NCBI GenBank assembly: GCA_009841335.1
Contig: VXLY01000112.1
Coordinates: forward strand, 1 to 64,000
Direction: 5' to 3'
From: Rhodothermaceae bacterium
GTDB taxonomy: Bacteria; Bacteroidota; Rhodothermia; Rhodothermales; Bin80
DNA length: 64,000 nucleotides
Positions 34,601-52,495 of this stretch are shown piece after piece; the first letter of the stretch is position 1; every line of letters begins with the position of its first letter. A model generated the notes under the pieces. It did no database searches and was not told where the DNA came from. It worked only from the letters and a program-made list of their open reading frames with translations. Both the position numbers and the translations under genes were made by a program.

Positions 34601-34923
34601 CAGGCATGTGTGCCCATGATACCTGCTACTTCGGATATATCCTCAAACAGAAAATCGCCCCGGTTCAGATAAAGGCGGTTGGGCACCTGGTTGCCAGTCA
34701 GGAACACATCAGGGAGTTCATCATCGTTAACATCCCCGATTGCGACGCCTCCTCCGTTATAGAAGTTACGGTAGCGATAAACATTGAAGTCGTCTTCATA
34801 CCGCAGCGTATTTTCAAAGTCGATCCCCGCCTCTATGGCGGAAATCTGTTCAAAGAGCGGTCCCTGTTCTGCGGTGCACGCACACAGAAAGATTGCCAGC
34901 AGCACGGACGCCAATTTATTCAT
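31615..34923 (-). CDS. CRTAC1-type FG-GAP/UnbV lipoprotein, long form (second copy)
   Basis: A 1102-residue lipoprotein with lipobox F-L-C-A-C. The architecture is the same as the gene downstream: N-terminal FG-GAP propeller (D-I-N-G-D-G-H-L-D-I-Y), UnbV domain with P-V-R-G-F-Q-S-S-V-D-P, then a second propeller half starting D-L-D-G-D-G-R-E-D-L-Y-L-G-G-A-R-G-Q-P-G. The two long paralogues share this order end to end, so they come from a duplication. It overlaps the small lipoprotein gene by 8 bp. Predicted to be at the outer membrane, facing the surface or periplasm. Confidence 0.85.
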   Translation of the reverse strand: MNKLASVLLAIFLCACTAEQGPLFEQISAIEAGIDFENTLRYEDDFNVYRYRNFYNGGGVAIGDVNDDELPDVFLTGNQVPNRLYLNRGDFLFEDISEVAGIMGTHAWSTGVSMADINGDGHLDIYVCNSGIAPGDDRRNELYINQGDGTFLETARSYGLDDAGLSTHATFLDYDLDGDIDMFLVNNSFRSILDFNLEVNTRHIPHMAGGDRLFRNEAPDARFTDVTASSGIYNSEIGFGLGASVGDVNRDGWPDLYISNDFFEHDYLYINNQDGTFSEELRKSMKSVSAAAMGADMADLNGDGFLDIFVTDMLPAANDRLKTVSSFDSWQRYQAYVRDDYYHQFTRNTLQINRGPAPDTPSEIRFTEAGRLLSVDASDWSWGALIADFDHNGKRDIFVANGIYRDLTNADYLTAIRDENTRDLLTSENYVDWKTLIEMIPVQAIPNHMFARLEEQPFSDVTQAWGLEAPGFSNGSAYGDLDLDGDLDLVINNLGGPPMIFRNRATDYFRDRNSLQIELAGIPPNTQAVGAQISAWHDARLWYIEQQPVRGFQSSVDPVLHLGLGDQIETLDSLVVRWPNGATTLYETVTTNQRLQLQEPPASPPTNDGIQVLPTPLLIPLDENAIGLDWQHTENVFSDFDQQPMLFHMRSTEGPAMCKGDLDGDGREDLYLGGARGQPGAIFVQTDQGSFERITQTVLVEDAPSEDVDCEWLDVDADGDQDLYVASGSSELPGSSSALVDRLYINNGTTNLERGESFMHLAARGFDPTSVVCSADFDGDGDLDLFQGTRLQPFAYGLPATSRLLLNDGSGKFTDATARLAPDLESIGLVTDAACADFDGDAEPDILISGEWMQLTLLKNDRGLLAPVNAELQNTSGWWQSVLAADLDGDGDLDFVAGNHGLNSRFKPPVEVWISDFDRNGRVEQIFARTIDGGQFPWHLRHDLVEQLPHLVRTFPTYASYADATIQDIFSDEELNRAVYLQATELRSMIGINDGTGSFTLIPGPEELQLSPVYGLADLHTAQGHFILAGGNLHEVKPEAGRYDASYGTALRSPSMESLNWHESGFFVEGQVRQILTLEANDRILVIVARNNDRLRVFAHAQ

Positions 34924-35500
34924 TGCCCTCGGGTAAAGCGGCTCGTAGATCCGTGATCAACACCAACACTTCACTGTCTGTATCGCGACGGATGGTTATC
35001 TGGCGGTTTGCGTCATTCTTCACAAACTCACGCGTGAGACCATGTAACGGTACCGGTATCTCCCGGGTAATGAATCCTTCGCCATACCAGGTTTCCATTA
35101 ATTGCCGAACATCCAGAAGTAGGCTGTCAGACCAAAGGCGCCGATTCCAGGGGGCCCACGCATCGTACTGGAAGCGGGTGCGCATCTGGACTACGCGGTC
35201 ATCCTTGAAGTCGGGGTAGTAGAGCATGGTCGCCTTATAGGGAAGAGCATCCGGGATCTCGTAAAGTACGTTCTGATTTTGCGGTCCCTGCCTGACTAGG
35301 CCGCGCCGATTCAACGCCCAACTTGAATCATAGAATGCCTGGCGTAACATCCCCAATTCGTAGTTAAGGAATATCTCACTGATTGTGTCAGGCCGGGCCA
35401 ACTCACGGGCTACTATAGCCTCGTGCGACGGAGTTCTTTCACAGGCCACTAGCAAAAGAAGCCCTAAAAAGCAGAACATCGAAAAGCCGGGTTGGCTCAT
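34916..35500 (-). CDS. Lipoprotein of unknown function within the CRTAC1 operon
   Basis: A 194-residue lipoprotein with lipobox L-L-V-A-C near residue 20. The mature part is mixed alpha/beta, rich in Tyr, Trp, Arg and Asp (A-P-W-N-R-R-L-W; M-E-T-W-Y-G-E-G-F). Its start overlaps the stop of the 611-residue CRTAC1 gene by 4 bp and its stop overlaps the next by 8 bp. It occurs exactly where the long paralogues have a second propeller half, so it may be a partner of the short form. No family was recognised. Confidence 0.7.
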   Translation of the reverse strand: MSQPGFSMFCFLGLLLLVACERTPSHEAIVARELARPDTISEIFLNYELGMLRQAFYDSSWALNRRGLVRQGPQNQNVLYEIPDALPYKATMLYYPDFKDDRVVQMRTRFQYDAWAPWNRRLWSDSLLLDVRQLMETWYGEGFITREIPVPLHGLTREFVKNDANRQITIRRDTDSEVLVLITDLRAALPEGNE

Positions 35501-37332
35501 TGAATCTCGGAAATAGTCAGACGCGAATTATGTTTGATATCAGTAATCACTCGCCGGTCCCCGTGCGCCCACTGCACAACGACAGAATCTAACGGTTCGG
35601 TGAAGCCAAAGTGCAGCACGGGATCTACACTGGACTGGAAACTGCGCTGCAGGTATTGTTCGGCGTACCATTGGGTTCCGTTCGCCCAGACGCTCACTTG
35701 GGTGCCAATCCCGAAGGTATTGGGTGGGGCACCTTCCAGTTTTACCTGCAGCCAGCGTCGGTCAGGATATAGCGAGGTTGCATGGCTACGGTAGATAAAA
35801 GCCGGCATATTTACATTATTGACGACCAGATCTAGATCCCCATCGTTATCCAGATCTCCATAAGCCGCTCCATTAGAAAAACTCGGCAGTGCCAAGCCCC
35901 ATGCCCTGCTTACGTCTTTGAAATGCAGACCCTGCTGACCTGCAAACATATGGTTCGGCAATGAATGTGACGGGACGTTTTCCAAAAGCTCTAGTATTGG
36001 CTCCTCATGTGCGAGAAAGAACGTCCGCAGGGAGTCAGCATTGGAGGCCTGGGCAATAAAGTCCTGATCCAAAAGGTCTTTGAAAATGCCATTGGGTACA
36101 AAAATATCCCGCCGACCATCCAAGTCGAAATCGGCAATCAGGCCTCCCCAGCTCCAGTCCGTGCTTTCCAAACCTGCGATGCGGGACACCTCGCTAAACT
36201 GCAAGTGTCCCTCGGGGGATCTTCCGCGATTTAACTGAAGGGTATTGCGAGTGGCCTGGTGGTGATAGCCGTCCATTAGGCTACTGGAATAATCTGACCA
36301 TGATGGGAATGCGATGCGAGATTGATACCGCCACGGTAGATCAGGCAGCATGTCAGAAACGAAAATATCCGGCCACCCATCACCGTTGTAGTCTGCGATA
36401 TCACCCCCCATGGAGCTAAGGCTCATCGTACTGATCGTGCGAGTACCTGCTTCCATAAATGTGCCGTCCTGCTGGTTGAGGTATAGGTAGTCACGTTCAA
36501 AAAAGTCATTGGAAACATACAGATCAGTCCATCCATCCCGGTTCACATCTCCGGTTGATACTCCCAGGCCGAAGCCAATTTTGCTGCTGTATATATTTGC
36601 GGTTGCTGTGATGTCGGCAAATCGACTGTCGTCGTTACGCAAGAGTCTGTTACCGCCGTCCGGATCTTGGATCTGTCGGAGATCCGGAGCAGGTTCCAGG
36701 TCATCAAGCGAACGGACTGGATTACTCAGAACGTAGGCATCCAGGTCGCGGTCTCCATCGTAATCAAAAAAAGAGGCATGAATCCCAAGTGCCTGAAAGG
36801 CAAGACCGTACTCGTGGGCCAGTTCAATGAAAGTGCCGTTCTGCTGGTTGATGAACAGTTCGTTATGGCGACGTACTCCACCCGGTGGTCCAGACTTGCT
36901 TAAATAGATATCCAGCCAACCATCGCTGTTTATATCTACGAGGCTTACCCCCGTGGTCCATACATTCGCTGAGTATAGGCCAGCGCTTTCGGTAACATCC
37001 TCAAAGTGGAAGTCTCCTTTATTAAGATAGAGTCGGTTGGATACCTGATTACCGGTCAGAAAAATATCTGCCAGACCGTCATTGTCTAAATCCCCAATTG
37101 CAACTCCGCCACCGTTATAGAAATTGCGGAAGACGTAGGTGTTTAGGGTTTCGGCAGGCACAAGATCATTGGCAAAGGTGATACCTGTTTGTTCGGGGCT
37201 CAACAGTTCAAATAGCTGGGTTTCGTGCTTGCATGCACCGAACACCAGGCATACAGACACAATGGGTAGGGCGCTTTGCGTGAGTGTGCCGGAGAAGAGT
37301 TTAGCTAGTCGGTTGTACACCTGAGATCCCAT
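35497..37332 (-). CDS. CRTAC1-type FG-GAP/UnbV lipoprotein, short form (first copy)
   Basis: A 611-residue lipoprotein with lipobox V-F-G-A-C and the N-terminal half of the architecture only: FG-GAP repeats (D-I-N-S-D-G-W-L-D-I-Y; D-V-N-R-D-G-W-T-D-L-Y), then the ASPIC/UnbV domain ending L-T-I-S-E-I. It is about half the length of the two downstream paralogues and lacks their second propeller. It is first in the operon. The upstream region carries a dispersed repeat shared with the PIG-L gene. Confidence 0.85.
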   Translation of the reverse strand: MGSQVYNRLAKLFSGTLTQSALPIVSVCLVFGACKHETQLFELLSPEQTGITFANDLVPAETLNTYVFRNFYNGGGVAIGDLDNDGLADIFLTGNQVSNRLYLNKGDFHFEDVTESAGLYSANVWTTGVSLVDINSDGWLDIYLSKSGPPGGVRRHNELFINQQNGTFIELAHEYGLAFQALGIHASFFDYDGDRDLDAYVLSNPVRSLDDLEPAPDLRQIQDPDGGNRLLRNDDSRFADITATANIYSSKIGFGLGVSTGDVNRDGWTDLYVSNDFFERDYLYLNQQDGTFMEAGTRTISTMSLSSMGGDIADYNGDGWPDIFVSDMLPDLPWRYQSRIAFPSWSDYSSSLMDGYHHQATRNTLQLNRGRSPEGHLQFSEVSRIAGLESTDWSWGGLIADFDLDGRRDIFVPNGIFKDLLDQDFIAQASNADSLRTFFLAHEEPILELLENVPSHSLPNHMFAGQQGLHFKDVSRAWGLALPSFSNGAAYGDLDNDGDLDLVVNNVNMPAFIYRSHATSLYPDRRWLQVKLEGAPPNTFGIGTQVSVWANGTQWYAEQYLQRSFQSSVDPVLHFGFTEPLDSVVVQWAHGDRRVITDIKHNSRLTISEIQ

Positions 37333-37800
37333 ATTGCGCGGTAGTACCCAGTGGATGATTTAACGCTCTTCACCGTGCAGTTGCCTAGATTCCGGCATGC
37401 TTGCGGTCGCATCAGTCTCCCCGTGATCACCGGTCATACACTCGATTTAGGAATCATAAGAAGGAGGAAAACCTTTGGGCGTGGTGTCATGCATAAAAAG
37501 GTACGTAACAACTCGATAGAATGGCATCAAGAGCAAAGGGAAAGGCCCGGAGCGTAACTAGCGGGAAGGGATAACTGTGATTCAACTGGCCAAAAGGTCT
37601 CTCGATGAGAGAGCTGCTGGAATATGTATTGGCGTATCATGTGGCCGGTCGGTCGAGTACATCTAGGTTGCAAAGGCACGAATACACACAAGTCTACCAG
37701 AACCCCGTCCGATCCCCTGAATTAAACACAGTATGACCACGACTGAATTTAATTCATGGTGAAACGAGTCCGGCCACCCGCTCTGGATCGACTCCGACGA
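37333..37800. other. Intergenic region upstream of the CRTAC1 operon, with dispersed repeat
   Basis: No gene is seen. It holds part A of a dispersed repeat (37481-37650) about 150 bp before the CRTAC1 operon start, so the repeat may carry or flank its promoter. The propeller gene diverges on the right. Confidence 0.5.
37481..37650. repeat. Dispersed repeat, copy 1 part A
   Basis: About 170 bp aligning clearly with 47751-47919. Shared blocks include AATGGCATC, CTGTGATTCAA and AATATG. The matching part B lies far away at 39413-39517, whereas in copy 2 the parts are adjacent. Confidence 0.7.
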
Positions 37801-38925
37801 ATGGATTTCTTTTCTTGTCCCCGCATACGCGTTAGGTGGCGGTATGCGGGGATCCTGTTTCTTTTGCCCCTGATCGCATGCCAGAGCGGGGAATTTACCC
37901 GAGTTGAAAATTCTCCGGGCATCGACCGTCTGCTGGATTCTGCTCCGCACTCTGTGGCCAATACGGACATCGAACCGGAAAGATGGGTGGCCACAACCCG
38001 ATTGGGGCTTCCAACTGATTCGCTCATCCTGGGTAGGCCCTCTTACATGATTGCGATCGAGGACAGTCTTTATATCTCTGAGAATATGGGATATGACATC
38101 TTTGTGGTAGGAGTTGATGGGTACCTCAGCCGGAAAATTGGTCGGCAGGGACAAGGCCCCGGAGAGTTTACTCATATAGAAGGGCTCGAGTACAGCGGTT
38201 CGCGCGTATTCGTCAAGGAGATGGGACGTTTGCAGGTATTCACGGAATCGTTCGAATATGTAGATTCGTTCGTCTCCCTGGATCCTTTCGTGCGTAGATT
38301 TTCGGTTTCTCCCGATTATATGTTTTTGCAATGCCCGGGCGACAACCCACTAGAGACCGATTGGATTGTTTGTGCTCGCCGTACATCACCACCGTATGAC
38401 TGGGTTTCGTCAATTAAATTGCTTCCTCGTCTGGATCTTCCGAATCAAACGGGGGAAAATAGTAGTGTTGTGACGGTGACTCCTGATGGGGATCGATTTG
38501 CCCTAGCATATGTCGGACTCCCCTATATCTTCATTTACGATGATCAGTTCCGGCATTTGCGAACGATTCGATTCGAGGGAAAAAAGGTTCGTGACTTTCA
38601 GCCTTCGGGTTTTCCCGGTGCAGCGGGTATAGAACTGCCAGCCGGGACGGAAGCTTTTACGCAGAGTTTCATATACACAATGAAGTTCCTCAATTCTCGC
38701 TATTTGATTGTGCGGGTAACCAAACAAGGGGGAGGAGGTGATTACATTTTCGATTTGTCTGAAGATGATTGCAGGCTCGCAAAAAAGATTGTCCTCCGGC
38801 CGATGAACGACACGGAAGAGAGAAATGATATTGCTGCTAGAGATTTACTCCTGCACGGGGATCATTTGTATGTATCTTCTCCCTGGGAAGAGTATGTAAA
38901 TGGCTATCCGTTTAACCTGGAATAA
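37801..38925 (+). CDS. Six-bladed beta-propeller lipoprotein (DUF5128-like)
   Basis: A lipoprotein of 374 residues from the ATG at 37801 (an ATG at 37756 would add 15 basic residues). The lipobox is L-P-L-I-A-C. The fold signature is I-G-R-Q-G-Q-G-P-G-E-F near residue 120, the typical NHL-like blade motif of Bacteroidota six-bladed propellers. Such proteins often sit close to SusC/SusD systems and are thought to bind peptides or glycans. It lies between two halves of a dispersed repeat, so it may have arrived as an insert. It has no same-strand neighbour. Confidence 0.75.
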   Translation: MDFFSCPRIRVRWRYAGILFLLPLIACQSGEFTRVENSPGIDRLLDSAPHSVANTDIEPERWVATTRLGLPTDSLILGRPSYMIAIEDSLYISENMGYDIFVVGVDGYLSRKIGRQGQGPGEFTHIEGLEYSGSRVFVKEMGRLQVFTESFEYVDSFVSLDPFVRRFSVSPDYMFLQCPGDNPLETDWIVCARRTSPPYDWVSSIKLLPRLDLPNQTGENSSVVTVTPDGDRFALAYVGLPYIFIYDDQFRHLRTIRFEGKKVRDFQPSGFPGAAGIELPAGTEAFTQSFIYTMKFLNSRYLIVRVTKQGGGGDYIFDLSEDDCRLAKKIVLRPMNDTEERNDIAARDLLLHGDHLYVSSPWEEYVNGYPFNLE

Positions 38926-39684
38926 CCGGGAACTTATTGAGCCGTTTTGAGGCCCTTATTTTCGATCAGCCTGTCAATTAGGGTGAAACCTTTACTGACT
39001 CCCCTATCGTTAATTCTGCGCCGTTTCTGCGATTCTCCGGGCATCCCCCGCGTTATTGCGCTGTGCACCTCGATTCTGGGGCGGTTCGTGAGCGGTTGGC
39101 GTAATAGCCACGCTGTTGGCCATCTCATGCGCACGGGCACATCATAGCCATATCCGGGGGCCATGCAGCACAGGGCCATTTATGCTTACTCCCCGTTTCC
39201 AGGTCAACCGGCCAAGAACTCCAACGGGGCTTGCGCGGCGGGATTTGGCCGAATTCGAAGAAACGCATTCCTCTGCAGAATATGGCTGGTTCTGGAAGCG
39301 CCCGGCAGCAGCGTTTCTGGCACGTCGTCTGCGCGGCCATTCTGTCCGAGCATAAGAAACTTTCCTATCGTCGCCGCCCATGCAAGCGTTTTTTCGTTGC
39401 TCGCAAAGGAGCGCTTGTGGAAAACCGTAGATGGGCCAATCTGATCTCGGTTAATGCGACGTACTTGGAGTTGACCAATTGAAAAGGGATCTCCAGTATG
39501 AAGCTGTACCGGAACACTAGAACTAGTCATCGAAGCGATTCTGATGAGTATGGAACTGAAGACTACGCGAATTCAGCGATCAGATTGTTGCATCGACTAC
39601 CGACCGGCCAGGCCATTCCGGTACAACGAAAAAGCGCCCCGCCGGTGACCCGACGAGGCGCTGCGTGTGTGCGAGGTGATTTGT
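38926..39684. other. 759-bp region with no confident gene
   Basis: Overlapping short frames on both strands, none with a recognised domain. The right end (39413-39517) is part B of the dispersed repeat. The rest (38934-39400) is unique and GC-rich and may be decayed coding DNA. The susD stop follows at 39685. Confidence 0.4.
39413..39517. repeat. Dispersed repeat, copy 1 part B
   Basis: About 105 bp aligning with 47951-48054; the best block is TACTTGGAGTTGACCA (39461-39476), followed by matching CCAGTA and CTGTACCGG-like blocks. It is separated from part A by 1762 bp. Confidence 0.7.
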
Positions 39685-41346
39685 CTAGTACCCGGGATTC
39701 TGCACGAGATTGGAGTTGGCTTCCAACTGATTGCGCGGAATCGGGGCGACATTGCGCCAATTCTCCGAGATTGGCTTGAACTGCCACGGATCATTGTAGC
39801 GGGTCTCTCCGCCTTCCACACCAGCAAAGCGGATCAGGTCCTGACGTCGGGTCTGTTCCCAGAAGAGCTCTCTGCCGCGCTCACCTATGAGTTTATCGGC
39901 ATCTAGGCTCATGAACGGATCCACACCGGAGCGCATCCGGATCTGGTTGACGAGGGCCAAAGCCTCCGCACTTCCCGCATTCATCCGCCACAATGCTTCC
40001 GCCTTGAGCAGCAATACATCCGCGTAGCGGTAGATCACAAAATCATTGCTGCCGGAACTGCCAATGCCGTTCTCAAATGCGTACTTGCCAATTCGAGCTC
40101 CGCACTGGCGGCACGCTACCGCCTCAAGGTCATTCATAGCAGGCGTGAACGTAAGGGGTGGTCCATTCCGATCAAAGTCACTATAAATGCCAGAGTCAGT
40201 GATCCTTTCGCCACCGGAGGTATACTGGGGACCTACCAGGAAATTGCCTAGCCGGTCATCTAACGTACCCATTACACGCTCCAAGCCCGCGTCATCCGAG
40301 GTCGGCTCAGAGCCCCAGACTTCACCTTGGGGTCCTGGGTTCTGCATCGGATCGATGACAGACTCATACATTTTCTGCGTGGCGCTCCATCCGTTCCACG
40401 GCTGAAATTGGAAGTTATAGGTATTCTGGCTTCCGTAGTGCAGCGTCATCTGGTGGAGATTCAATCCGGTCAGGAACACCTTGTCATAAGGGACGACGAA
40501 GATGTTCTCCGGTGATCCGTCATTCTGGACGGCAAAATTGTCGTGATAATTCGCCGCCAGGGAATACTGGCCGGAGTTGATAATCTCGTTTAGCTGTGTC
40601 AGCGCATCTCCCCATCTGCCGGTACCCGTGTAGACCTCGGCATTCATGTAGAGCTTGGCAAGCGTCATACGCGCTACATACTGATTCATGCGCCCGTAGG
40701 TACCACGCGTATCGGTGCTAAGATTGCCCACGTTATCGAGGAGCTCCTTCTCTACAAACTGAAACACCATCCGTCGTCCTTCCGCAAAATCTGAGGACGG
40801 CTGGGAGGGCTTCTCCTCGGCATCTACGAAACTGGTTACAATCGGAACATTGCCGAATGCATCCAGCAGCCAGAAGTAATAGAAAGCGCGCATAGCGACC
40901 AGTTCAGAAATGAACGTTTCCGCAAGCGCAGGATCGGCAGCCCCGGACTCCACGGCGCTTTCAAACTGAAAAATCAGCCTGTTGGCGTTGTTGATTCCTG
41001 AGAAATAAGTGTTCCAGAATCCGTTGAATGTACCGTCGGCTTCCGTCCAAGAGTGGCTGTTGACTCTGTACCAGAATCCACCTTCGGACCAGTCCTGCCC
41101 GCGCGCAGGCACGATGATCTCATCCGTGGTGGCCTCATTAAACTGTGCCGGCGATCCACCACCGCCCAAAGCTGTTAGCCTGCTATAGGCATCACCCATA
41201 GCTGAGACGAACTGCTGGTCATTTTGAAAAAAGGTTTCAGCCGTAACCTGGCTGTCGACCGTGTCCGTCAGGTCCGTGCAGCCCACTGAATAAAACAGCA
41301 GGCCAGCGGCGAGGACCAGCGGAGAAAGGATTGTTCTCGGTTTCAT
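39685..41346 (-). CDS. SusD/RagB-family nutrient-binding outer-membrane lipoprotein
   Basis: A 553-residue lipoprotein with lipobox S-V-G-C (Cys23). It has the SusD helical/TPR fold: N-terminal A-E-T-F-F-Q-N-D-Q-Q-F-V-S-A-M, G-I-N-N-A-N-R-L-I, and the family hallmark A-L-V-A-M-R-A-F-Y-Y-F-W-L-L-D-A-F-G-N-V-P near residue 155. SusD binds the substrate on top of SusC. It follows the susC gene by 22 bp. The ending L-V-Q-N-P-G-Y is standard for this family. The substrate cannot be read from the sequence. Confidence 0.95.
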   Translation of the reverse strand: MKPRTILSPLVLAAGLLFYSVGCTDLTDTVDSQVTAETFFQNDQQFVSAMGDAYSRLTALGGGGSPAQFNEATTDEIIVPARGQDWSEGGFWYRVNSHSWTEADGTFNGFWNTYFSGINNANRLIFQFESAVESGAADPALAETFISELVAMRAFYYFWLLDAFGNVPIVTSFVDAEEKPSQPSSDFAEGRRMVFQFVEKELLDNVGNLSTDTRGTYGRMNQYVARMTLAKLYMNAEVYTGTGRWGDALTQLNEIINSGQYSLAANYHDNFAVQNDGSPENIFVVPYDKVFLTGLNLHQMTLHYGSQNTYNFQFQPWNGWSATQKMYESVIDPMQNPGPQGEVWGSEPTSDDAGLERVMGTLDDRLGNFLVGPQYTSGGERITDSGIYSDFDRNGPPLTFTPAMNDLEAVACRQCGARIGKYAFENGIGSSGSNDFVIYRYADVLLLKAEALWRMNAGSAEALALVNQIRMRSGVDPFMSLDADKLIGERGRELFWEQTRRQDLIRFAGVEGGETRYNDPWQFKPISENWRNVAPIPRNQLEANSNLVQNPGY

Positions 41347-41368
41347 GATATCTGTGGTTCCTGTCTGT

Positions 41369-44300
41369 TTATAAGGTTACGTTTATGCCAAAGCTGATGG
41401 ATCTCGTGGTAAACCACTCAATCCTCCGCTCAATCCCAGGAGCCAGCGGTCCTCCGCTGGAGCCCTGCTCTGACTGACCCTGATTGCGGTCTACATACCG
41501 CACCTGCGGATTCAGACCGGAATAGCCTGTGATAGTAAACAGGTTGTTTCCGGTCAGATATAGCCTCACACGGCGGACTGGACTGTCACTCAACATCCGA
41601 GCGGGCAACGTATAACCCACGGAAGCGTTGTTCAGGCGCACATAGTCAGCATCTTCAATGTAGTAGCTGGACCAGCGCGGGTCGTCCTTGAGATTACTCA
41701 GTTCAAACGCGTGCGACAGCACGTTGTAGGACGAAATTTGCTTAGGTACGGAATAAAACAGGCTGAACATGTTGGCCAACTGGTGCCCAAACACACCTTC
41801 CAGGAAGAAACTCATATCGAAGTCCCCGTAGCGCATGTTGTTGCTCCAGCCGATCTGAAAGTCCGGAAGGCCGTTGCCAAGGATCTGTTCATCATCCGGG
41901 AATGAAAGACCACCGTATTCCACTTCCGATCCATCCGGCTTCAGGAAGAGCCATTGGCCGTTATCACCGATGCGGGAAAACTGTGGTCCCCAAAGCTGTC
42001 CGATTGGCTCTCCTTGTTTAACCCGGATCAGGTCCGGTGTATTGAGACCCGGTGATCCTGGGCTGGCGAGAAACTGCACATCCTCAGTGTGAAACTGGTT
42101 AAGCATCGTTTCCGAGTAGAACGAAGCTACTATTCCGGTATTCCAGGACAGCGGGCCGTCGCCGCGGAGCACATCAACATCAAGCGAGATCTCCAGTCCA
42201 CTGGTTTCCAGCTCACCTACGTTGGTCCAGGTAGTGGGATACAGGTTCGGCGGCACCGGGACGCTGACTTCAAACAGCAAGTCACTCGTGGTCGAATTGT
42301 AAAAGTCGATACGACCACTGACACGATCGCCGGCGGTCACAAAGTCGGCCCCAATGTTGAGCTCCGTCTTCTCCTCCCATTTCAGGTCCGGATTCGGGTT
42401 ACTAACAGGTCCGAAGCTCTGGATGAATTGACCGTTGACAAAGAAGTTGCCAGCTGGGGCGAATCGCTGCAGGGCCAAGCCGCTCAGCGGAGCATCCTGA
42501 CCCGTTTTACCTATGCTTCCGCGCAGTCTCAGAGAGCTGAGGTACGGCACATCGACGAGGTTGCTGACTTCCACCCCGACTCCTGCGGCCCAGAAAAGAC
42601 CCCATTTGTTGTCCTCGCCAAAACGTGAAGAGCCTTCTCGTCGCAGACTGGCGTTGGCAAACACGGTACCGTCATAATTGACATTGGCCCGCCCGAAGAA
42701 AGCCACCAGACGGTGCGTACTTCGGAAACTGCTTACGGACCCTTCACCTTGGCTAAAGTCCTGCGCAAAAGAGAAGTTGTTGAACGAGACATTGTCTGCG
42801 ATGAAATCACCGCCAGCCGCATTAAAGCCTTCATCAACAAAGTCGTTATATGAGTACCCGGCGAAGGCTTCCAGTGAAGTGGATTCAGCCAGATCACCGG
42901 AATAGTGGAGCGTGGTTTCAAACAGCTCACTGCTCAAGTCCAGATAGGCTTGTGTAGCCCGGCCCGGACCCAGTGAAGCGGCTGTGGCCCCGCCTCCAAC
43001 TTTATGCTTGCGCGAAAAGAACTCACGGGCAACCTGATCTTCGGTCTGGAAGGAATATTGCGCGGCAAACGACAGTCCGGGCAGGACAGAGTCAAAGTTG
43101 TACTCGCCCCTGAATACTCCGGTAAAATACTTGCTCTCGCCAATGCGCTCGCCTTCTTCAATAATGGCGACCGGGTTGAAGTAGTTGAATAGAGGCTGCT
43201 CAAAGTAGCCACCGGTATTCTCAAAACCAGAGGCGGTGACGGGAGCGGTCGGATTCATGATGCCGGAAAACTTGAAAGCGTCGGCGAATCCGAAATTTTG
43301 ATCTTTCTTCGTTGCCGCCAACTGGATCGTTACCTCCAGATCATGATCCATGGCCCACTGAGTGAAATTCAGCCGGCCACCGATTTCCTGAAAGCCAGTG
43401 TAGCGTTGGATGCCGTTTCGGTCCCGGAAATTACCGGATACGCGATAGACCGTATTCTCATTGCCACCGCTAAGCGCAAGGTTGTGAACCATGTTCGATC
43501 CCTGCTGGGTGACTTCCTTGAACCAATCGGTGCTTGTGCCCAGATCCGGCGCGTTCAGACCAGTCTCGTTCGATAGCCGGCGGTACTCATCACCGCTCAG
43601 CACATCCAAGCGATTTTCAATACCCTCAAACGTGTAGTAGGCATTATAATCTACAGACACGCCTCTCCGCGCTTCACCTTGCTTGGTCGTAATCAGAATA
43701 ACGCCGGCGGAGCCGCGCGTTCCGTAGATAGCCGCGGCGGAGGCATCTTTGAGTACTTCTACCGAGCCAATATCCGAGGGGTCCAAGTTGTCCCAGTTAG
43801 CTCCGATTACGCCATCTACAACGACCAGCGGCGACTGATTGGCTCCAAACGAGGAGATTCCGCGGAGGCGGATCTCAGCCACATCATTCGGATTGCCGTT
43901 GCGGGTGGTTATCTGAAGTCCAGCAACCTTGCCCTGAATGAGCTCGGCAGCTGAGTTGACATTTCCGGCAACGAAGTCTTCGTCGCTCAGACTGGCCACC
44001 GCGCCGGTAATCGTCCTACGCTCCTGGGAACCGTATCCAGTCACCACAAGCTCCTCACCGATTTCGAACACGGTTTCAACCATCGTAACGTCAATCTCAT
44101 TACGCCCGTCGATGCCGATTTCCTGCGTGTCAAAGCCAACAAAGGAAAACACCAATGTATCCTGCAGCGAAGGGACGTTTACGACATAATTGCCGCTCAT
44201 GTCGGTCGTTCCGCCTTGGGTAGTACCTTTGACGACGATGGAGACTCCGGGCAGCGGGTCGCTGGTTGTGCCGTCACGCACAGTCCCGGATACCGTTGAC

Positions 44301-44371
44301 TGCGCCAGCACCGACGGCACCGCAAGCGCAATCAACAGAAGTGAAAGTAACGCTCTTTTCATATTCATCAT
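41369..44371 (-). CDS. SusC/RagA-family TonB-linked outer-membrane transporter
   Basis: A 1000-residue TonB-dependent transporter with a signal peptide ending V-L-A-Q. An N-terminal carboxypeptidase-regulatory-like domain (S-G-T-V-R-D, residues about 26-105) is followed by the plug (V-L-K-D-A-S-A-A-A-I-Y-G-T-R-G-S-A-G-V-I-L-I-T-T-K) and a C-terminal beta-barrel. The terminal residues S-F-G-I-N-V-T-L form the last strand. It imports oligosaccharides or peptides with SusD. The exbB/exbD/tonB-like genes at the left edge could energise it. A TACGTTTG promoter lies 53 bp upstream of the start. Confidence 0.95.
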   Translation of the reverse strand: MMNMKRALLSLLLIALAVPSVLAQSTVSGTVRDGTTSDPLPGVSIVVKGTTQGGTTDMSGNYVVNVPSLQDTLVFSFVGFDTQEIGIDGRNEIDVTMVETVFEIGEELVVTGYGSQERRTITGAVASLSDEDFVAGNVNSAAELIQGKVAGLQITTRNGNPNDVAEIRLRGISSFGANQSPLVVVDGVIGANWDNLDPSDIGSVEVLKDASAAAIYGTRGSAGVILITTKQGEARRGVSVDYNAYYTFEGIENRLDVLSGDEYRRLSNETGLNAPDLGTSTDWFKEVTQQGSNMVHNLALSGGNENTVYRVSGNFRDRNGIQRYTGFQEIGGRLNFTQWAMDHDLEVTIQLAATKKDQNFGFADAFKFSGIMNPTAPVTASGFENTGGYFEQPLFNYFNPVAIIEEGERIGESKYFTGVFRGEYNFDSVLPGLSFAAQYSFQTEDQVAREFFSRKHKVGGGATAASLGPGRATQAYLDLSSELFETTLHYSGDLAESTSLEAFAGYSYNDFVDEGFNAAGGDFIADNVSFNNFSFAQDFSQGEGSVSSFRSTHRLVAFFGRANVNYDGTVFANASLRREGSSRFGEDNKWGLFWAAGVGVEVSNLVDVPYLSSLRLRGSIGKTGQDAPLSGLALQRFAPAGNFFVNGQFIQSFGPVSNPNPDLKWEEKTELNIGADFVTAGDRVSGRIDFYNSTTSDLLFEVSVPVPPNLYPTTWTNVGELETSGLEISLDVDVLRGDGPLSWNTGIVASFYSETMLNQFHTEDVQFLASPGSPGLNTPDLIRVKQGEPIGQLWGPQFSRIGDNGQWLFLKPDGSEVEYGGLSFPDDEQILGNGLPDFQIGWSNNMRYGDFDMSFFLEGVFGHQLANMFSLFYSVPKQISSYNVLSHAFELSNLKDDPRWSSYYIEDADYVRLNNASVGYTLPARMLSDSPVRRVRLYLTGNNLFTITGYSGLNPQVRYVDRNQGQSEQGSSGGPLAPGIERRIEWFTTRSISFGINVTL

Positions 44372-45040
44372 GAGTCCGGTTAATGAAAGGCCAACTAGTT
44401 TTATTCGTGTACGGGCGAAATACCAAACGTACGCGAGGATATATGTCTACTGAAACATACGCTACGCGAAATTTAAATTCAAATGCAAGCGCACAAAAAA
44501 GTGCAATGGTTCGACCTAAAAAATCAGGTCAACGGCGGTACCATATCTAGCTGCAATCAACATAATTCTTGTTCGAGGCCGGCGCACCCCGGTACGAATG
44601 TGCATCTGGATTCAGGGACGGCGCCTATGGCAGTTTCCGCTGCTTCCCTGGTCAAAAGCCTCAACTAGAAGTGTTTTAGTGGAACACCGCTTCCTCAAAG
44701 TCCGGGGCGGATTCTCGTGTTTTGTTTGGCTGATTTATGCGACCTTTCTTCGGCGTGATCAGCGGTTCCAAACTTTGCCCCAATACTTCGCGGTGGTGTA
44801 CTGAGGAATCCCCGTATCCATACTGCACGAAATCAGCGACGGATACAGCGCCTTGGCCTCGGGCAATTAATCCACGATCATCGACGAATCTGTCCCTTCC
44901 TACAGCAATTTGGTGGTGAATAATGCACGGATGCGGGTCCTCCAAAAGGCAGACTGATCGTCTGGTTTTGAGCAGCGGGACGCAGAATAGGGTGCGGCCG
45001 GAGTTTAAATTTGCGACCCGATTGATCTTACGGGCATCGG
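44372..45040. other. 669-bp region upstream of susC with no confident gene
   Basis: It holds the susC promoter at its left end. An 89-codon minus frame (44676-44945) has no recognised domain and could be a decayed gene. No RNA gene or strong dyad was seen. Confidence 0.4.
44424..44456 (-). promoter_or_regulatory. Candidate Bacteroidota-type promoter of susC
   Basis: On the minus strand TACGTTTG (44424-44431) matches the -7 element TAnnTTTG exactly, and GTTTC (44452-44456) lies about 20 bp upstream near the expected -33 TTTG position. It is 53 bp before the susC start. Confidence 0.5.
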
Positions 45041-47704
45041 CTACATAGACAGCAGATTGGCAAGCAGCCGATATGCGCCAGCCACCGAATAGGGTACCTG
45101 TCGGTGTAACGCCAACGCACAGTAGGTATAGTGTCCCTGTCCATAATCTGCTACAAGGAACGCTCCCCGCTGGGGCTCCTGACCAGTATCATTCATTTCA
45201 ATTAGCGGTGTATAGGCACCATCCCACTCAGTGAAGAATTTGGATCCGCGCTGCTCGACCCAGCCATCAAAATCCGCCCCGGTGATCGGGTTAGGCCCCG
45301 CAAGCACCGGGTGGTCGGGTGCAAGAATGGTCACCGGGGCATCTTCCTCGGAAACCTCCTCAGCGCCTCTGGGCAGTTGGGCAGATATAGGTGCCATCTG
45401 GTCCGGGACAAACTCCTGGGTCTGGTAGAGCACAATCAAATTGCCTCCAGCATGCGCATATTCCAACAGCCGACGGTTGTTGGTTAGCAGGTCTTGTCGT
45501 ACAGCATAAGCGCGCGTGCCGATCACAATCGCATCAAATTCACTTAAAGTGCCACTGGCCAGGTCAGCTTCTTGCAGTAGCGTTACGGCGGCCCCCAACT
45601 GCTGAATGGCTGAAGGAACTTCATCTCCAACCCCCATTACATAGCCGACATTCAAGTCCGGGGAAATGTCTACTTGAAGTCCGGTAACCTGTGTGGTGGC
45701 CTCGCGAAACAAGTACCGCGTTTCCATATGGCTGTGTCGGATAACCTGGTAACCCTCCGATATGGTGGCATCTCCCACGTGCGCTACAGCCCGTACATCA
45801 TAAACATGACCAGCTTCCAGGTCCGGCACATGGACTTCGAAGGAGAAGAGCTGACGTTCTCCGGCCTGCGCGAAGGTCAGCTCATGACTGGGCGGGCTGG
45901 CTGTCCAGCCTTCGGGCAGCTGAAGGTCCATAGAACCGACAGTACCGCCAGGGACATTGTTAATTATCTCAGTGGAGACGGTAAACTGACTGCCTGAGAC
46001 CTGTGGGATTACGATTCGGTGGGCTGGCGACACATTGACCACCAGCGCAGGCATCACGTGCAGCTTTCGCATGACGTATCCGTACGGCAGATTCGCCTCA
46101 CGGGTTTGGACATCGCGCACCAGATGAATAGGTACCCCCATGATATTTAGGCTAGCCACTGCCTGCAGACCTGCAGGCCGGGTCGGCTGGTGCTTCCAAC
46201 GCGGGTCGTGCCACTGGAAATGGTTCTCCTTCACGCTGTTGCGAAAAAAATAGGGCCGTGCATACGGGGCATCGTCGGGCACCGCTGCCGCAAATACCAC
46301 TTGGTGGAACGGCGTTGACTGTCTTACCTCACTGCTGATCTGCCAGTCGTCCTGTGATAGCCCGGTCGGATCTTTGATGGTCATCGCGACGGCATCAGCG
46401 GCAATGTCGGCCGGGATAGAGAGTCGCGCGTCAATCTCAAAGGACTGCCCGCGTACGACGGGTCCCATGGTGGATGGAGCCTGCCAGAAGCTCGAAACCG
46501 GCGGCGTACCTGTCGGCTGAGCCGTAGCCGTGAACGCAAGGCCTACGGCCGTGGCGATTGCGTGCTGAAACTGCTCCTCCTTGATCTGCAGCATGAAGGC
46601 TGATTCGGAATCCTCAGGCAACAGGCTCAGGAGCTCACGTGTCTTGGCCAGACCGGCCATCAGATCGCCGACCACGGCATCAGGGTGGCCCGGGCGGGCG
46701 GCCATGAGGGCATCGTGAACATGTGCAGCAATCTCATCGAGCAGAGTAGCCCCACCTTCTGGAGGTGCTTCACCGGTCAATTCAAACAACCCGGCCAGCG
46801 TCACATTCAGTCCGTCAAAGAAGCTGGACTCAGCCTCCGCTCCCGGTTCTGACAGGCGCTCATAGTAGTATGGCACGGGGCCAAGAGTAGTACGCGTACG
46901 GCCGCTGGTCTGCGAACGCTGCAGACTTAGTCCATACATGCCAAAGTTATAGTAGGAATCACCCAGCCAGGGACTGTGCTGACCGGCATCGAAGTTCATG
47001 TTCCAGGGCTCATTTTCCCGTACACCGCCACGGTACAACTTGTGCACTTTCCACGGCCGCAATCCCTCCTCGGTAATCTGCTCGGGAAACCGTTCAGGGT
47101 CTGCCGCCGCCGCCACGGCATCAGGCGTTATCTGGCCAACAGCCACATGGTTGCCATGCCCATCCCGGGTTGACCCGTGAAATCTGGAAATCACCACTAC
47201 CGGGCGATCCATGCGAATGACCCGAACCATGTCGGAAAGTACTCGCTCCACATCCCAGCTCTTGAGGGATTCTTCAAGTGTTTTTGAATAGCCGTAGTCC
47301 ACCGCGCTCGAAAAATAGAGTCCATCCAACCCATAGTAGCGCCCTGCAAGCCGCAGTTCCTCGGTACGGATCAAACCGAGGCCATCAAATAGTTCAGGCC
47401 CAATGGCATTGGCCCCAGCTTCACCCCGATTGATGGACATCAGAGAAACCCTAGCGCCGGCACCACGACTTAGGTATGTCAAAAGCCCAGCGTGCTCATC
47501 GTCCGGATGGGCTACCGTATGCAGCATGCTTGCTGTAGTGGACAACTTCAGCAGCTGCTGCCACAAACCGGTACTTCCGCGGTCCACATCGAGTAGAGGG
47601 CCGCCCTCAGTACTCAGCGTGCTATTGAGTGCCTGTTCCTGCGCAATCGTCACAGGCACACAGATAAGACAGGCAAGACAGAAAGTAGTCAACAGACGAA
47701 GCAT
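45041..47704 (-). CDS. PIG-L family deacetylase-like protein with ThuA-like C-terminus, secreted
   Basis: An 887-residue protein with a signal peptide ending T-I-A-Q. The N-terminal PIG-L/LmbE domain has A-H-P-D-D-E at residues 65-70 and a later H-G-N-H-V-A-V-G motif that supplies zinc ligands. These enzymes remove acetyl groups from GlcNAc-type sugars. The middle part is beta-rich (NPCBM/Ig-like). The C-terminal about 200 residues resemble a glutamine-amidotransferase-like (ThuA) fold, with F-D-A-I-V-I-G-T-R-A-Y and A-G-G-N-L-I-V-L-Y-Q-T. This architecture is common in Bacteroidota. Glycan breakdown together with the Sus genes is plausible. Confidence 0.85.
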   Translation of the reverse strand: MLRLLTTFCLACLICVPVTIAQEQALNSTLSTEGGPLLDVDRGSTGLWQQLLKLSTTASMLHTVAHPDDEHAGLLTYLSRGAGARVSLMSINRGEAGANAIGPELFDGLGLIRTEELRLAGRYYGLDGLYFSSAVDYGYSKTLEESLKSWDVERVLSDMVRVIRMDRPVVVISRFHGSTRDGHGNHVAVGQITPDAVAAAADPERFPEQITEEGLRPWKVHKLYRGGVRENEPWNMNFDAGQHSPWLGDSYYNFGMYGLSLQRSQTSGRTRTTLGPVPYYYERLSEPGAEAESSFFDGLNVTLAGLFELTGEAPPEGGATLLDEIAAHVHDALMAARPGHPDAVVGDLMAGLAKTRELLSLLPEDSESAFMLQIKEEQFQHAIATAVGLAFTATAQPTGTPPVSSFWQAPSTMGPVVRGQSFEIDARLSIPADIAADAVAMTIKDPTGLSQDDWQISSEVRQSTPFHQVVFAAAVPDDAPYARPYFFRNSVKENHFQWHDPRWKHQPTRPAGLQAVASLNIMGVPIHLVRDVQTREANLPYGYVMRKLHVMPALVVNVSPAHRIVIPQVSGSQFTVSTEIINNVPGGTVGSMDLQLPEGWTASPPSHELTFAQAGERQLFSFEVHVPDLEAGHVYDVRAVAHVGDATISEGYQVIRHSHMETRYLFREATTQVTGLQVDISPDLNVGYVMGVGDEVPSAIQQLGAAVTLLQEADLASGTLSEFDAIVIGTRAYAVRQDLLTNNRRLLEYAHAGGNLIVLYQTQEFVPDQMAPISAQLPRGAEEVSEEDAPVTILAPDHPVLAGPNPITGADFDGWVEQRGSKFFTEWDGAYTPLIEMNDTGQEPQRGAFLVADYGQGHYTYCALALHRQVPYSVAGAYRLLANLLSM

Positions 47705-48352
47705 CGCGTTATTGATTTGGGGAGTTGTAAATAGACGTAAAATCTTGGACGTGAAGTCATGTATAAGAAGATACGTAACTGCTCAAAGAGAATGGCATCG
47801 TGAACGAGGGGAATGGCCGTGGGCGTATCCACAGGAAAGGGATTACTGTGATTCAAGAGGCTCAATAGTTTCCCGATGCGAAAACGGTTAGAATATGGAT
47901 TGACCGTATCGTGCGGTCGAACAGTCATGCATGCCCACGATCTGAAAGAAGCTTATAGAAATCAGTAGGTGGCCCTATCTGACTTGGTTTTTGCGATTTA
48001 CTTGGAGTTGACCAGCTAAAAAGAAATTTCCAGTACTATGTTGTACCGGGGCATTGGGGTTCGCAGACAATGGTGTGATACATGCTGCAGAGAATCCGCG
48101 CGGCATTTTCGACCAAGCGTTCAAGACATTACCGGACCGATCGAAGAAGATGAATCATTTTTCCTGATATGACTTAATTTCACTGTTGCGTACAACGACG
48201 GGAACGCATACTTGAGGGAGACGATTTGAGAAAAAGTCTAATCACTCAGGAGCGATGTTCGCTGTCATGCATCGATAGGACAACAAATTGGTTGGGTTTG
48301 CATGTATACTCGATATAGAATGTGATCTTCCGCCATTGCATACTATTCCCAA
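47705..48352. other. 648-bp region with dispersed repeat copy 2
   Basis: No gene is seen. Repeat parts A (47751-47919) and B (47951-48054) occupy the left half, immediately before the PIG-L gene start. The right half (48060-48352) has no recognised element and precedes the aldolase gene. Confidence 0.5.
47751..48054. repeat. Dispersed repeat, copy 2 (parts A and B contiguous)
   Basis: Part A is 47751-47919 and part B is 47951-48054, separated by 31 bp. They align with 37481-37650 and 39413-39517. The repeat begins 46 bp upstream of the PIG-L gene. No terminal inverted repeats or intact transposase frame were recognised. Confidence 0.7.
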
Positions 48353-49117
48353 ATGGATTTCAGATCGGAGGTCTGTCGAGAGCTTCTGGAGCTTGCACAT
48401 TTTTTAGGAGATGCCCGACAGATGGCAATTTTTGGAGAGGGCAATGTGTCGGGCAAGTTGGATTCAGAGTTCTTACTTGTCAAGGCTAGTGGTACTTCTC
48501 TCTCCACACTGACCGCTGAAGAATTGGTCAAGGTCGCGGCGCGTTCGCTCGTTGATGCGGTTATGGATGAGACATTGATTACGGATGAAGAGGCCAATGA
48601 GTTGCTTCTGGATTCCCTCCAGTACCCATCTGCGCTCAAGCCCTCTGTGGAGTCCATGTTTCATGCCTGGCTACTTACGCTGCCCGGTGTAGCTTATGTT
48701 GGGCATGTACATGCCAGGGCAGTCAGTGCCCTTATGTGTTCACCGCACGCAGAGAAGTTTGCTTTACATCGACTGGTTCCTGATCAGGTCGTTTATACCG
48801 GCCCCTCATCGGTGATCGTACCCTATGTAGATCCCGGTATAGTGCTTGCTCGTCATATCAGGGAGGCCGTTGGCACTTATCGTAGCGCCACTGGTCATGT
48901 GCCCAAGACCATATTGCTAAAAAATCACGGGATTATAGCGTTGGGTGGGACAGCACAGGAGGTCGCAGCCGCACTTTCCATGGCCGAAAAAGCTGCGCGT
49001 ATATACCTTGATGCAGCAGTATTGGGGCCTCCGATCTTTATGGAGGCATCGGAGGTGGTACGCATAGCGGGTCGCAGTGACGAACATTATCGGCAGGCTA
49101 TGCTTTCCCGTAAATAA
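48353..49117 (+). CDS. Class II aldolase/adducin family protein
   Basis: A 254-residue protein with the FucA/RhaD/AraD fold. The substrate phosphate loop G-N-V-S-G-K-L and V-K-A-S-G-T-S-L are visible. The zinc motif G-H-V-H-A-R-A is near residue 118, and L-K-N-H-G-I-I supplies the third His. These enzymes split sugar phosphates to dihydroxyacetone phosphate and an aldehyde, or epimerise them. It lies upstream of a bifunctional aldolase/dehydrogenase on the same strand after 181 bp, suggesting deoxysugar breakdown. The exact substrate is not determined. Confidence 0.85.
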   Translation: MDFRSEVCRELLELAHFLGDARQMAIFGEGNVSGKLDSEFLLVKASGTSLSTLTAEELVKVAARSLVDAVMDETLITDEEANELLLDSLQYPSALKPSVESMFHAWLLTLPGVAYVGHVHARAVSALMCSPHAEKFALHRLVPDQVVYTGPSSVIVPYVDPGIVLARHIREAVGTYRSATGHVPKTILLKNHGIIALGGTAQEVAAALSMAEKAARIYLDAAVLGPPIFMEASEVVRIAGRSDEHYRQAMLSRK

Positions 49118-49298
49118 TTCCTCAATGAAGCAGCGTTATTCTCTGGTATATATGGATCGTGCATTCAACCTCTTTACATGTAGTGCCGGGATTGATCAAT
49201 TGACGCCCGGTCGGACCGACGCCGCTTCTCGCACATTCCGGATGTTCCATCATATTCCGTAATGCCAGTGGGTTTATCGACCATCAAAACTTATACAC

Positions 49299-51500
49299 AT
49301 GTCTCTGCCCGTTCCTGAATCTCCTGTTTTCAAATACATCACCGATCGCTGGGAGGACCATGTCGCAAATAAGTTGGATCCCGTGGAGCGTCTTATCTAT
49401 CGCTCAAACTTGTTAGGGCAGGATTGGCGGATCACCAATACGGGTGGCGGCAACACCTCCACCAAACTCAAAGAGAAAGATCCTCTGACCGGGGAGAGGG
49501 TGTCCGTGATGTGGATCAAGGGGTCGGGCGGTGATCTCCGGACTGCCACACGGAAGAATTTTGCATCCTTGTATCAGGATCAATTGCTTGCGCTTCAGAA
49601 GCTGTACGCCAGCGAGTCTTCACGAGGAGTAAAATCAGCGGCCGAAGATGCAATGGTTGCGGCGTACAAGCATTGTGTATTCAATCTAAATTCCCGGGCG
49701 CCCTCTATTGATACGCCGTTACACAGTTTTGTACCATTCTCGCATGTGGATCACTCGCACCCAGTTGCCTGCATCGCACTGGCGACAGCCGCGGATGGCC
49801 CTGCACTCACACATGAGATCTATGGAACGGACGTGATCTGGGTTGACTGGCAGCGGCCGGGTTTTGAGCTTGGCTTAAAGCTGCAGGCCGTTTGTGCAGA
49901 ATACCCAGAAGCAAAAGGCGTATTGCTGGGAGGGCATGGCCTGATCAATTGGGCAGAGAGTGATAAAGCCTGCTATCATCTCAGTCTGGAACTTGCCGAC
50001 CGCGCAGAAGTCTTTCTTGCTGACAGGGGAGCGGGTACATATGCGTTTGGCGGGGTGCGCCACACGCCGTTAAATGAGGCGGCACGTACCTCTGCACTTG
50101 TGGATGTTCTGCCGTGGTTGCGAGGAAAAGTCAGTCAGCATAAACGCTGCATTGCTACACTGGAACTGGATCCACACGTAGTTGATTTTGTGAATTCTGA
50201 AGATGCGCCGCGCCTGGCGGAGTTGGGGACATCCTGCCCAGATCATTTCCTGCGTACCAAAATCAAGCCACTTTATGTGGAGTGGGATCCAGGGCAGGGG
50301 GATGTTGATGCCCTGAAAGCAGCACTTGCTAACGGCCTTGAGCAGTATCGAAAGGACTATGCAGCTTACTACGCCGCCCATCGACATGCGGACTCCCCAC
50401 CTATAAGGACGGTAGAACCCACGGTTGCGCTGATTCCGGGAATTGGTCTTGTTGCCTGGGGTAAGTCAAAGAGTGAGAGCCGTGTAACAGCAGAATTTTA
50501 TCGTGCAGCCATCGGTGTCATGCAAGGTGCCGAGGTGGTTTCGACGTACACGGCGCTACCGAGACAGGAGGCCTTTGATATCGAGTATTGGTCACTGGAA
50601 GAGGCCAAGCTTCGCCGAATGCCGCAGGAAAAGGGATTCGCGGGCCAGGTGGTGGTCATCTTTGGCGCAGGAAGTGGAATTGGCAGGGAAACAGCAATCC
50701 GTATGGTGGCAGAAGGGGCGAATATCGTTGCCGTTGATCTCAACGAATCTGCGGCAAAAGAGGTAAGCGATACTATCCTGCAATCCGTCGGGATGGGGAT
50801 CGGTGTTGCAGGAACGGGAGTGTCAGGATGCGGAAATGCGATTGGTCTGGGTTGCGATATTACGGAGCGCACCTCCGTTCGACAGGTGATGGAAACCACG
50901 ATTCTGGCTTATGGTGGACTGGATCATGTGATCATCACAGCAGGGATGTTTCCAGGAACCGACGCAGCGGGGGTTGTTCCGGATGCAGCATGGGACAAAA
51001 CGTTTGCTGTAAATGTGAAGGGATCCTACATCGTGGCCAGTGAAGCGGCAAAGACGTGGGAGGCGCAGCAGTTACGGGGGAGCCTCGTACTGACTGGAAG
51101 CGTTAATGGAGTCGTTCCCAAGTCAGGGAGTATGGCTTATGACACAAGCAAGAGCGCGCTTAATCATCTGGTACGCGAACTTGCAGTTGCCTACGCTCCC
51201 CTGATTCGCGTTAACGGGATTGCGCCTGCGACGGTTATCGCAGGCAGCAGCATGTTCGGACGTGAACGTGTAATCCGTTCTTTACGCAAGTACGGGCTGC
51301 CCTGCAGCTCCAATGAATCCACGGATACCTTGCGCGAGCGCCTAGCTGATTTTTATGCGGGGCGAACGCTTACGGATCAGCGAGTGACCGCCAGAGATCA
51401 GGCGGAAGCGGTAATACTTTTGGCGAGCAGAAAGCTTGGAAAAACCACAGGACAGATCCTGAACGTCGATGGCGGGCTTGAAGGAGCATTCCTTCGCTAA
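49299..51500 (+). CDS. Bifunctional rhamnulose-1-phosphate aldolase/lactaldehyde dehydrogenase-like fusion
   Basis: A 733-residue fusion. The N-terminal class II aldolase domain (residues about 20-430) has G-G-G-N-T-S-T-K and zinc motif H-V-D-H-S-H-P-V. The C-terminal short-chain dehydrogenase domain has V-V-I-F-G-A-G-S-G-I-G near 450 and the catalytic Y-D-T-S-K (Tyr614, Lys618). Related RhaEW/YuxG enzymes cleave rhamnulose-1-phosphate and oxidise the lactaldehyde. No isomerase or kinase gene (RhaA, RhaB) is in this window. Its stop overlaps the convergent aldo/keto reductase by 4 bp. Confidence 0.88.
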   Translation: MSLPVPESPVFKYITDRWEDHVANKLDPVERLIYRSNLLGQDWRITNTGGGNTSTKLKEKDPLTGERVSVMWIKGSGGDLRTATRKNFASLYQDQLLALQKLYASESSRGVKSAAEDAMVAAYKHCVFNLNSRAPSIDTPLHSFVPFSHVDHSHPVACIALATAADGPALTHEIYGTDVIWVDWQRPGFELGLKLQAVCAEYPEAKGVLLGGHGLINWAESDKACYHLSLELADRAEVFLADRGAGTYAFGGVRHTPLNEAARTSALVDVLPWLRGKVSQHKRCIATLELDPHVVDFVNSEDAPRLAELGTSCPDHFLRTKIKPLYVEWDPGQGDVDALKAALANGLEQYRKDYAAYYAAHRHADSPPIRTVEPTVALIPGIGLVAWGKSKSESRVTAEFYRAAIGVMQGAEVVSTYTALPRQEAFDIEYWSLEEAKLRRMPQEKGFAGQVVVIFGAGSGIGRETAIRMVAEGANIVAVDLNESAAKEVSDTILQSVGMGIGVAGTGVSGCGNAIGLGCDITERTSVRQVMETTILAYGGLDHVIITAGMFPGTDAAGVVPDAAWDKTFAVNVKGSYIVASEAAKTWEAQQLRGSLVLTGSVNGVVPKSGSMAYDTSKSALNHLVRELAVAYAPLIRVNGIAPATVIAGSSMFGRERVIRSLRKYGLPCSSNESTDTLRERLADFYAGRTLTDQRVTARDQAEAVILLASRKLGKTTGQILNVDGGLEGAFLR

Positions 51501-52474
51501 TGTCCAAGTATACGATGTGGAACATAAGGGGCCTCCAGCAGGGCTACTTCCTCGGCAGAGAGTTCAAGCGAAAGACTGCGAACAGCACTTTCCAGGTGGG
51601 AGATTCTGGACACTCCGACGATGGGTGCCGTTACCCCTTGTTTTGACAATAGCCACGCCATGGCTATTTCTGCGGGTGGCTCGCCACGCTCATCGGCGAG
51701 TTCCCGCAGCGCTTGAATGACATGTGCGTCCTCGGGGGCGGTATAGCGTTCATGCATTAGCTCATCACTCCTTGCGCGTGCCGTTGAGAGTGGATCTTCG
51801 AGAGACTCCGCGCGGGCGAGTAAACCGCGGGCCAGGGGAGACCAGGGCAAAACGGCCAGTCCCTCTTCCTGGCAGAGGGGGATCATTTCCCGCTCCTCCT
51901 CGCGATACAGGAGGTTATAGTGGTTTTGCATACTGACAAACCGGGTCCACCCATTGAGCGCAGCAGTACCGAGCATGCGAGCCAATTGCCAGGCGTACAT
52001 GCTTGAAGCCCCTATATAGCGTACTTTACCATCCCGGACGAGCAGGTCCAGAGCGGCAAGGGTTTCATCAATAGGCGTGTTCACATCATAGCGATGAATC
52101 TGATACAGATCAATCGTTTCGACACCCAGTCTGCGCAGGCTGGCTTCGCATGACTGGACGATGTTCTTTCTTGAGAGTCCTCCAGAATTGGGGGCATCCC
52201 GAAGGGGAAAGAAAACTTTTGAGGCTAGCACGATTTCATTCATGTTGCCGTAGCGTTTGAGTGCACGGCCTGTGATTTCCTCACTAACACCATTGGAATA
52301 AATGTCAGCGGTATCAAAGAAGTTGATACCGAGCTCAATGGCGCGCCTGAAAAATGGCTGAGAGGCCTCCTCATCCAACAGCCAGGGCTGCCAGGATCGA
52401 TCTCCGAAAGACATGCATCCAAGTGCAAGGCGCGAAACGGTGAGGCCTGTATTTCCCAAACGGGTGTATTGCAT
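51497..52474 (-). CDS. Aldo/keto reductase
   Basis: A 325-residue NADPH-dependent AKR. It starts M-Q-Y-T-R-L-G-N-T-G-L-T-V-S-R-L-A-L-G, with the tetrad visible as Asp/Tyr in F-F-D-T-A-D-I-Y, Lys in V-L-A-S-K-V-F, and His in Y-Q-I-H-R-Y-D. Cofactor contacts V-S-R-I-S-H-L appear near the C-terminus. It belongs to the YajO/Tas-like group. It converges tail to tail with the aldolase fusion and could reduce the lactaldehyde made there, but this is inference. Confidence 0.9.
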   Translation of the reverse strand: MQYTRLGNTGLTVSRLALGCMSFGDRSWQPWLLDEEASQPFFRRAIELGINFFDTADIYSNGVSEEITGRALKRYGNMNEIVLASKVFFPLRDAPNSGGLSRKNIVQSCEASLRRLGVETIDLYQIHRYDVNTPIDETLAALDLLVRDGKVRYIGASSMYAWQLARMLGTAALNGWTRFVSMQNHYNLLYREEEREMIPLCQEEGLAVLPWSPLARGLLARAESLEDPLSTARARSDELMHERYTAPEDAHVIQALRELADERGEPPAEIAMAWLLSKQGVTAPIVGVSRISHLESAVRSLSLELSAEEVALLEAPYVPHRILGH

Positions 52475-52495
52475 GGTAGAGCCCAGAATAAGGTG

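Follow-up and report, generated by a model that had tools for sequence, protein, structure and literature searches.

Two IS1595-family remnants in a Rhodothermales genome, one split by a propeller lipoprotein gene and the other shortened by a deletion

A dispersed repeat occurs at two places in the first 64,000 nucleotides of a contig of a Rhodothermaceae bacterium (GCA_009841335.1, VXLY01000112.1; this stretch is referred to as the window): one copy, before the CRTAC1 gene, is split by a block with a propeller lipoprotein gene, and the other, before a PIG-L gene, appears contiguous. What is this repeat, and how did one of its copies come to be divided? A sequence-only reading of the window had proposed that the gene block was inserted into an old repeat, which might be either a decayed mobile element or a shared control region. 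The explanation that we regard as almost certain is that IS1595 remnants lie at the two sites and decayed, and that copy 1 later received a 1.65-kb propeller insertion, while copy 2 underwent an 82-bp deletion; of this explanation, the family assignment, the orthologous positions, the block-free site, the deletion and the drift are shown.

The two copies have the same orientation, and their similarity is well above chance. A BLASTN search with copy 2 against the whole genome (3.49 Mb, 121 contigs) retrieved part A (37475-37647, 74%, E 2.4e-22) and part B (39413-39512, 77%, E 5.3e-14) of copy 1, and no further copy below E 0.3, so that the genome-wide search leaves only the two known sites. Local alignment within the window agrees with this result. 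The copies align at 73-77%: the two-copy repeat with one copy split by a gene block is therefore real, and the identity is not near background, as the sequence-only reading had allowed it might be. The limits first given for the repeat (37481-37650, 39413-39517 and 47751-48054) turned out to be those of the mutual match and not those of the element, which are given in Table 1. In particular, the stretch 39351-39412 belongs to part B, where it matches the loci L014 and L018 at 83-84%, but its counterpart in copy 2 is missing, owing to a loss of 82 bp there. Copy 2 occupies the gap between the divergent genes for PIG-L (minus strand) and a class II aldolase (plus strand), and only 9 bp separate its left end from the start codon of PIG-L. 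The window's genome and the related species G007 and G008 have another PIG-L gene (L059, G000:C84:3440-4036), which contains an in-frame TGA.

Table 1. Coordinates, in the window, of the repeat copies, the interrupting block and the deletion junction.
Feature	Position	Strand	Evidence
Copy 1 part A, 5' end of IS1595-family remnant (leader, N-terminal codons, start of zinc ribbon)	about 37444..37697	+	74% to copy 2; alignment with G009, G007 and G008 orthologs
1653-bp block inserted between zinc-ribbon codons of copy 1	37698..39350		site without block in L018, shortened site in L015; left junction shared by L034
6-bladed beta-propeller (DUF5128-like) lipoprotein gene in block	37801..38925	+	PF17170, E 2.9e-6; paralogs at other loci
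3' flank of propeller gene	38937..39033	+	about 97 bp matched at 62-68% downstream of paralogs in L099, L049, L036 and L050
Copy 1 part B, remaining zinc ribbon and next transposase codons	about 39351..39517	+	77% to copy 2
Copy 2, IS1595-family remnant	about 47714 to at least about 48163	+	BLASTN, window alignment, alignment with relatives
Junction of 82-bp zinc-ribbon deletion in copy 2	47950..47951		alignment with G009:C30 and G007:C6, ribbon kept

Between the two identities that had been proposed, it is the decayed mobile element that is borne out. Because it shows a zinc ribbon, a match to transposases, a match to an NCBIfam model and a continuation into a DDE domain, the repeat is, judged by its sequence, the degenerate 5' portion of a transposase gene or element of the IS1595 family. 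When read through, the remnant consensus (NRREGITVIQLAQKFPDEETARVWIERIMWPNGRVCPRCK...SSMKLYRDIGVSQPTAWYMLQRI) is 50% identical to an intact transposase of the same genus (L026, E 1.5e-38) and 37-45% identical to other intact IS1595-type transposases of the genus. The NCBIfam model transpos_IS1595 (NF033547) matches the consensus with E 1.1e-7 but falls short of the model's cut-off, since the sequence covers no more than the N-terminal part. The N-terminal zinc ribbon of the IS1595 type is recognisable both from this protein match to intact members and from a profile match in G009, whose two copies keep about 80 bp that are absent from copy 2 and have an open zinc-ribbon frame of 107 aa: Zn_ribbon_IS1595 (PF12760) reaches E 1.2e-4 and 22.4 bits there, against a curated cut-off of 25.4, under which the intact L026 (20.3 bits) also falls. 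Moreover, the G009 ortholog of copy 2 runs, with a TGA, into an ISXO2-like DDE domain (DDE_Tnp_IS1595, PF12762, positions 3-68), of which the first 68 of 153 positions are left in G009 and none were detected in the window copies.

Elements of the IS1595 family (ISXO2-like transposase, PF12760 and PF12762; NF033547) carry terminal inverted repeats and are flanked by 8-bp target duplications. The remnants share with them the N-terminal zinc ribbon, the conserved stretch that follows it before the DDE domain and, in the least decayed ortholog, the extension into that domain. They differ from these elements by frameshifts and stops, by the absence of the 3' half in every copy, by terminal repeats that are no longer recognisable, and by being immobile; indeed, the transposase frame, which is open in an autonomous element, is broken in both window copies. 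With their 3' ends gone and their 5' ends degraded, neither terminal inverted repeats nor target duplications of the remnants can be defined, and a simple ungapped scan of the intact relatives yielded only weak, inconsistent pairs of terminal inverted repeats. Intact IS1595-family genes are numerous in the genus, including the window's own genome, and none was found to be close enough to be the parent, the best being about 50% identical in protein. A reading of the repeat as a structured non-coding RNA was rejected: Rfam gave no match in the window at the gathering score and nothing credible around copy 2 at E values up to 10.

Among 99 relatives searched, the repeat was confined to three congeneric species (G007, G008 and G009; the relatives with named records are Rhodothermales metagenome assemblies), and always at one of two places: before PIG-L (site P) or in the interval from the start of CRTAC1 to the end of SusD (site C). 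Both copies were in place before the four Rhodothermales species of this genus split. At site C, between CRTAC1 and SusD, the repeat is uninterrupted with continuous ribbon codons in G009 (L018), and uninterrupted but shortened in G007 (L015). The gene block is absent from these two species and common to the window species and G008, where the propeller gene follows the same left junction (L034) and the contig ends at the right junction, which is outside its coverage. Where the block is missing, the sequence forms part of a transposase gene, which makes the uninterrupted state the ancestral one and places the arrival of the block in the common ancestor of G008 and the window species. The proposed insertion of a gene block into an old repeat is supported by these comparisons, with limits that replace the junctions first placed at 37651 and 39412. 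The target duplication that had been looked for at its ends was not found among the 8-mers beside 37697 and 39351 when these were compared by eye in the window, G008 and G009, and no inverted ends of the block were found.

The lipoprotein gene in the block belongs to the fold family of the beta-propeller lipoproteins of Bacteroidota (DUF5128, PF17170), which is multi-copy in the genus; this copy lies inside an IS remnant and is restricted to the window species and G008. The flank behind it travelled with the gene, because it also follows paralogs elsewhere. The idea that the paralogs belong to a common mobile unit was considered and rejected, since what they share is limited to the gene itself and about 100 bp downstream. 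The last about 320 bp of the block have no recognised content, and a Pfam search of 39031-39350 revealed no coding remains. The family has up to about ten members per genome in the genus, with a very uneven copy number; G004 has tandem arrays of these genes (contigs C118 and C51), in which in-frame TAG codons occur.

The contiguous look of copy 2 has its own cause, namely the deletion of 82 bp of the zinc ribbon. At site P, the window species and G008 are without these codons, which G009 and G007 keep (contigs C30, C17 and C6); site C of G007 has lost the same stretch. Because the stretch is bordered by GAAACG and GGAACG in G009, its loss was likely a deletion between short repeats that happened twice. 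Taken together, the ancestor of the four species carried one ISXO2-like IS of the IS1595 family in two copies, before CRTAC1 and before PIG-L, which presumably arrived by their own transposition. The 3' part of each copy disappeared, and both drifted at a roughly neutral rate. In the common ancestor of G008 and the window species, the 1.65-kb segment with the propeller gene entered the zinc-ribbon codons of the CRTAC1-side remnant, most likely, as a guess, by illegitimate recombination, and separately the PIG-L-side remnant lost 82 bp of the same zinc ribbon.

A reversed order of events, in which the long spacer is ancestral and the gene block was later lost from copy 2 and from the relatives, could draw on the fact that copy 2 and the CRTAC1-side copy of G007 carry the 82-bp deletion at the split point. 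The sequence-only reading had named such a deletion in copy 2 as a result that would overturn it; a deletion of 82 bp did take place in copy 2, yet this leaves the 1.65-kb block of copy 1 an insertion. The uninterrupted copies of G009 continue as transposase codons across the split point and match intact transposases, and a transposase gene cannot have housed a propeller gene from the outset, so that a spacer-first order is refuted for the block and has next to no probability overall. A control region kept before two operons, which had been offered as the other identity of the repeat, would explain why both copies sit, in the same orientation, directly upstream of CRTAC1 and PIG-L, two genes that point away from them, and why copy 2 begins so close to the PIG-L start codon. 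However, the repeat aligns to transposase codons, and other species with a CRTAC1 gene lack it. The rate at which the remnants drift is close to that of fourfold-degenerate sites, with nothing that points to a kept control function: their divergence between species is 0.19-0.32, compared to 0.17-0.33 at such sites of PIG-L, CRTAC1, SusD and the aldolase gene. No conserved island was detected, the best conserved 30-column window being no better than permutation (P 0.33), and the 5' end, which faces the genes, is the least conserved part. A shared control region is accordingly unsupported and very improbable.

A less remote, though still unlikely, alternative is that the remnants once bounded, as direct repeats, a composite IS1595 transposon, which moved a block for polysaccharide use (SusD, SusC and PIG-L) here in the ancestor of the four sponge- or marine-associated species. 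The remnants have the same orientation, flank 39.5-47.7 kb and were nearly identical at the start: the divergence between the two copies of G009 is only 0.10, and a tree of all copies is nearly star-like except for the pairs of the window species and G008, which fits copies that were almost the same just before the species split. Furthermore, the contig ends of G009 within the stretch bear IS110-type and other transposase fragments, and in G006 the aldo/keto reductase gene (window 51500-52477) directly adjoins CRTAC1, without the 14 kb that intervene in the window. This 14-kb stretch (37400-51500; SusD, SusC, PIG-L, class II aldolase, RhaD-type aldolase/dehydrogenase) is specific to the four species, and so are the RhaD-like gene and this form of PIG-L. 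The missing stretch, however, also includes the two aldolase genes, which lie outside the flanked segment, and two separate IS insertions in a turnover hotspot account for the same facts.

With the two separate IS1595 remnants that we prefer, the repeat is ordinary genome debris, a fossil of a known kind that leaves the general picture unchanged. It is nevertheless a dated fossil: comparison of the species puts in order the IS copies, their decay, and a gene insertion at one copy with a deletion at the other. The locus as a whole emerges as a hotspot of gene turnover. Elsewhere in the window, three CRTAC1/FG-GAP-type genes lie in a row (30159-37132), with 60-78% repeats in their propeller codons, and a single gene carries two runs of His/Glu/Asp codon repeats (53967-54332), which are likely metal-binding stretches.
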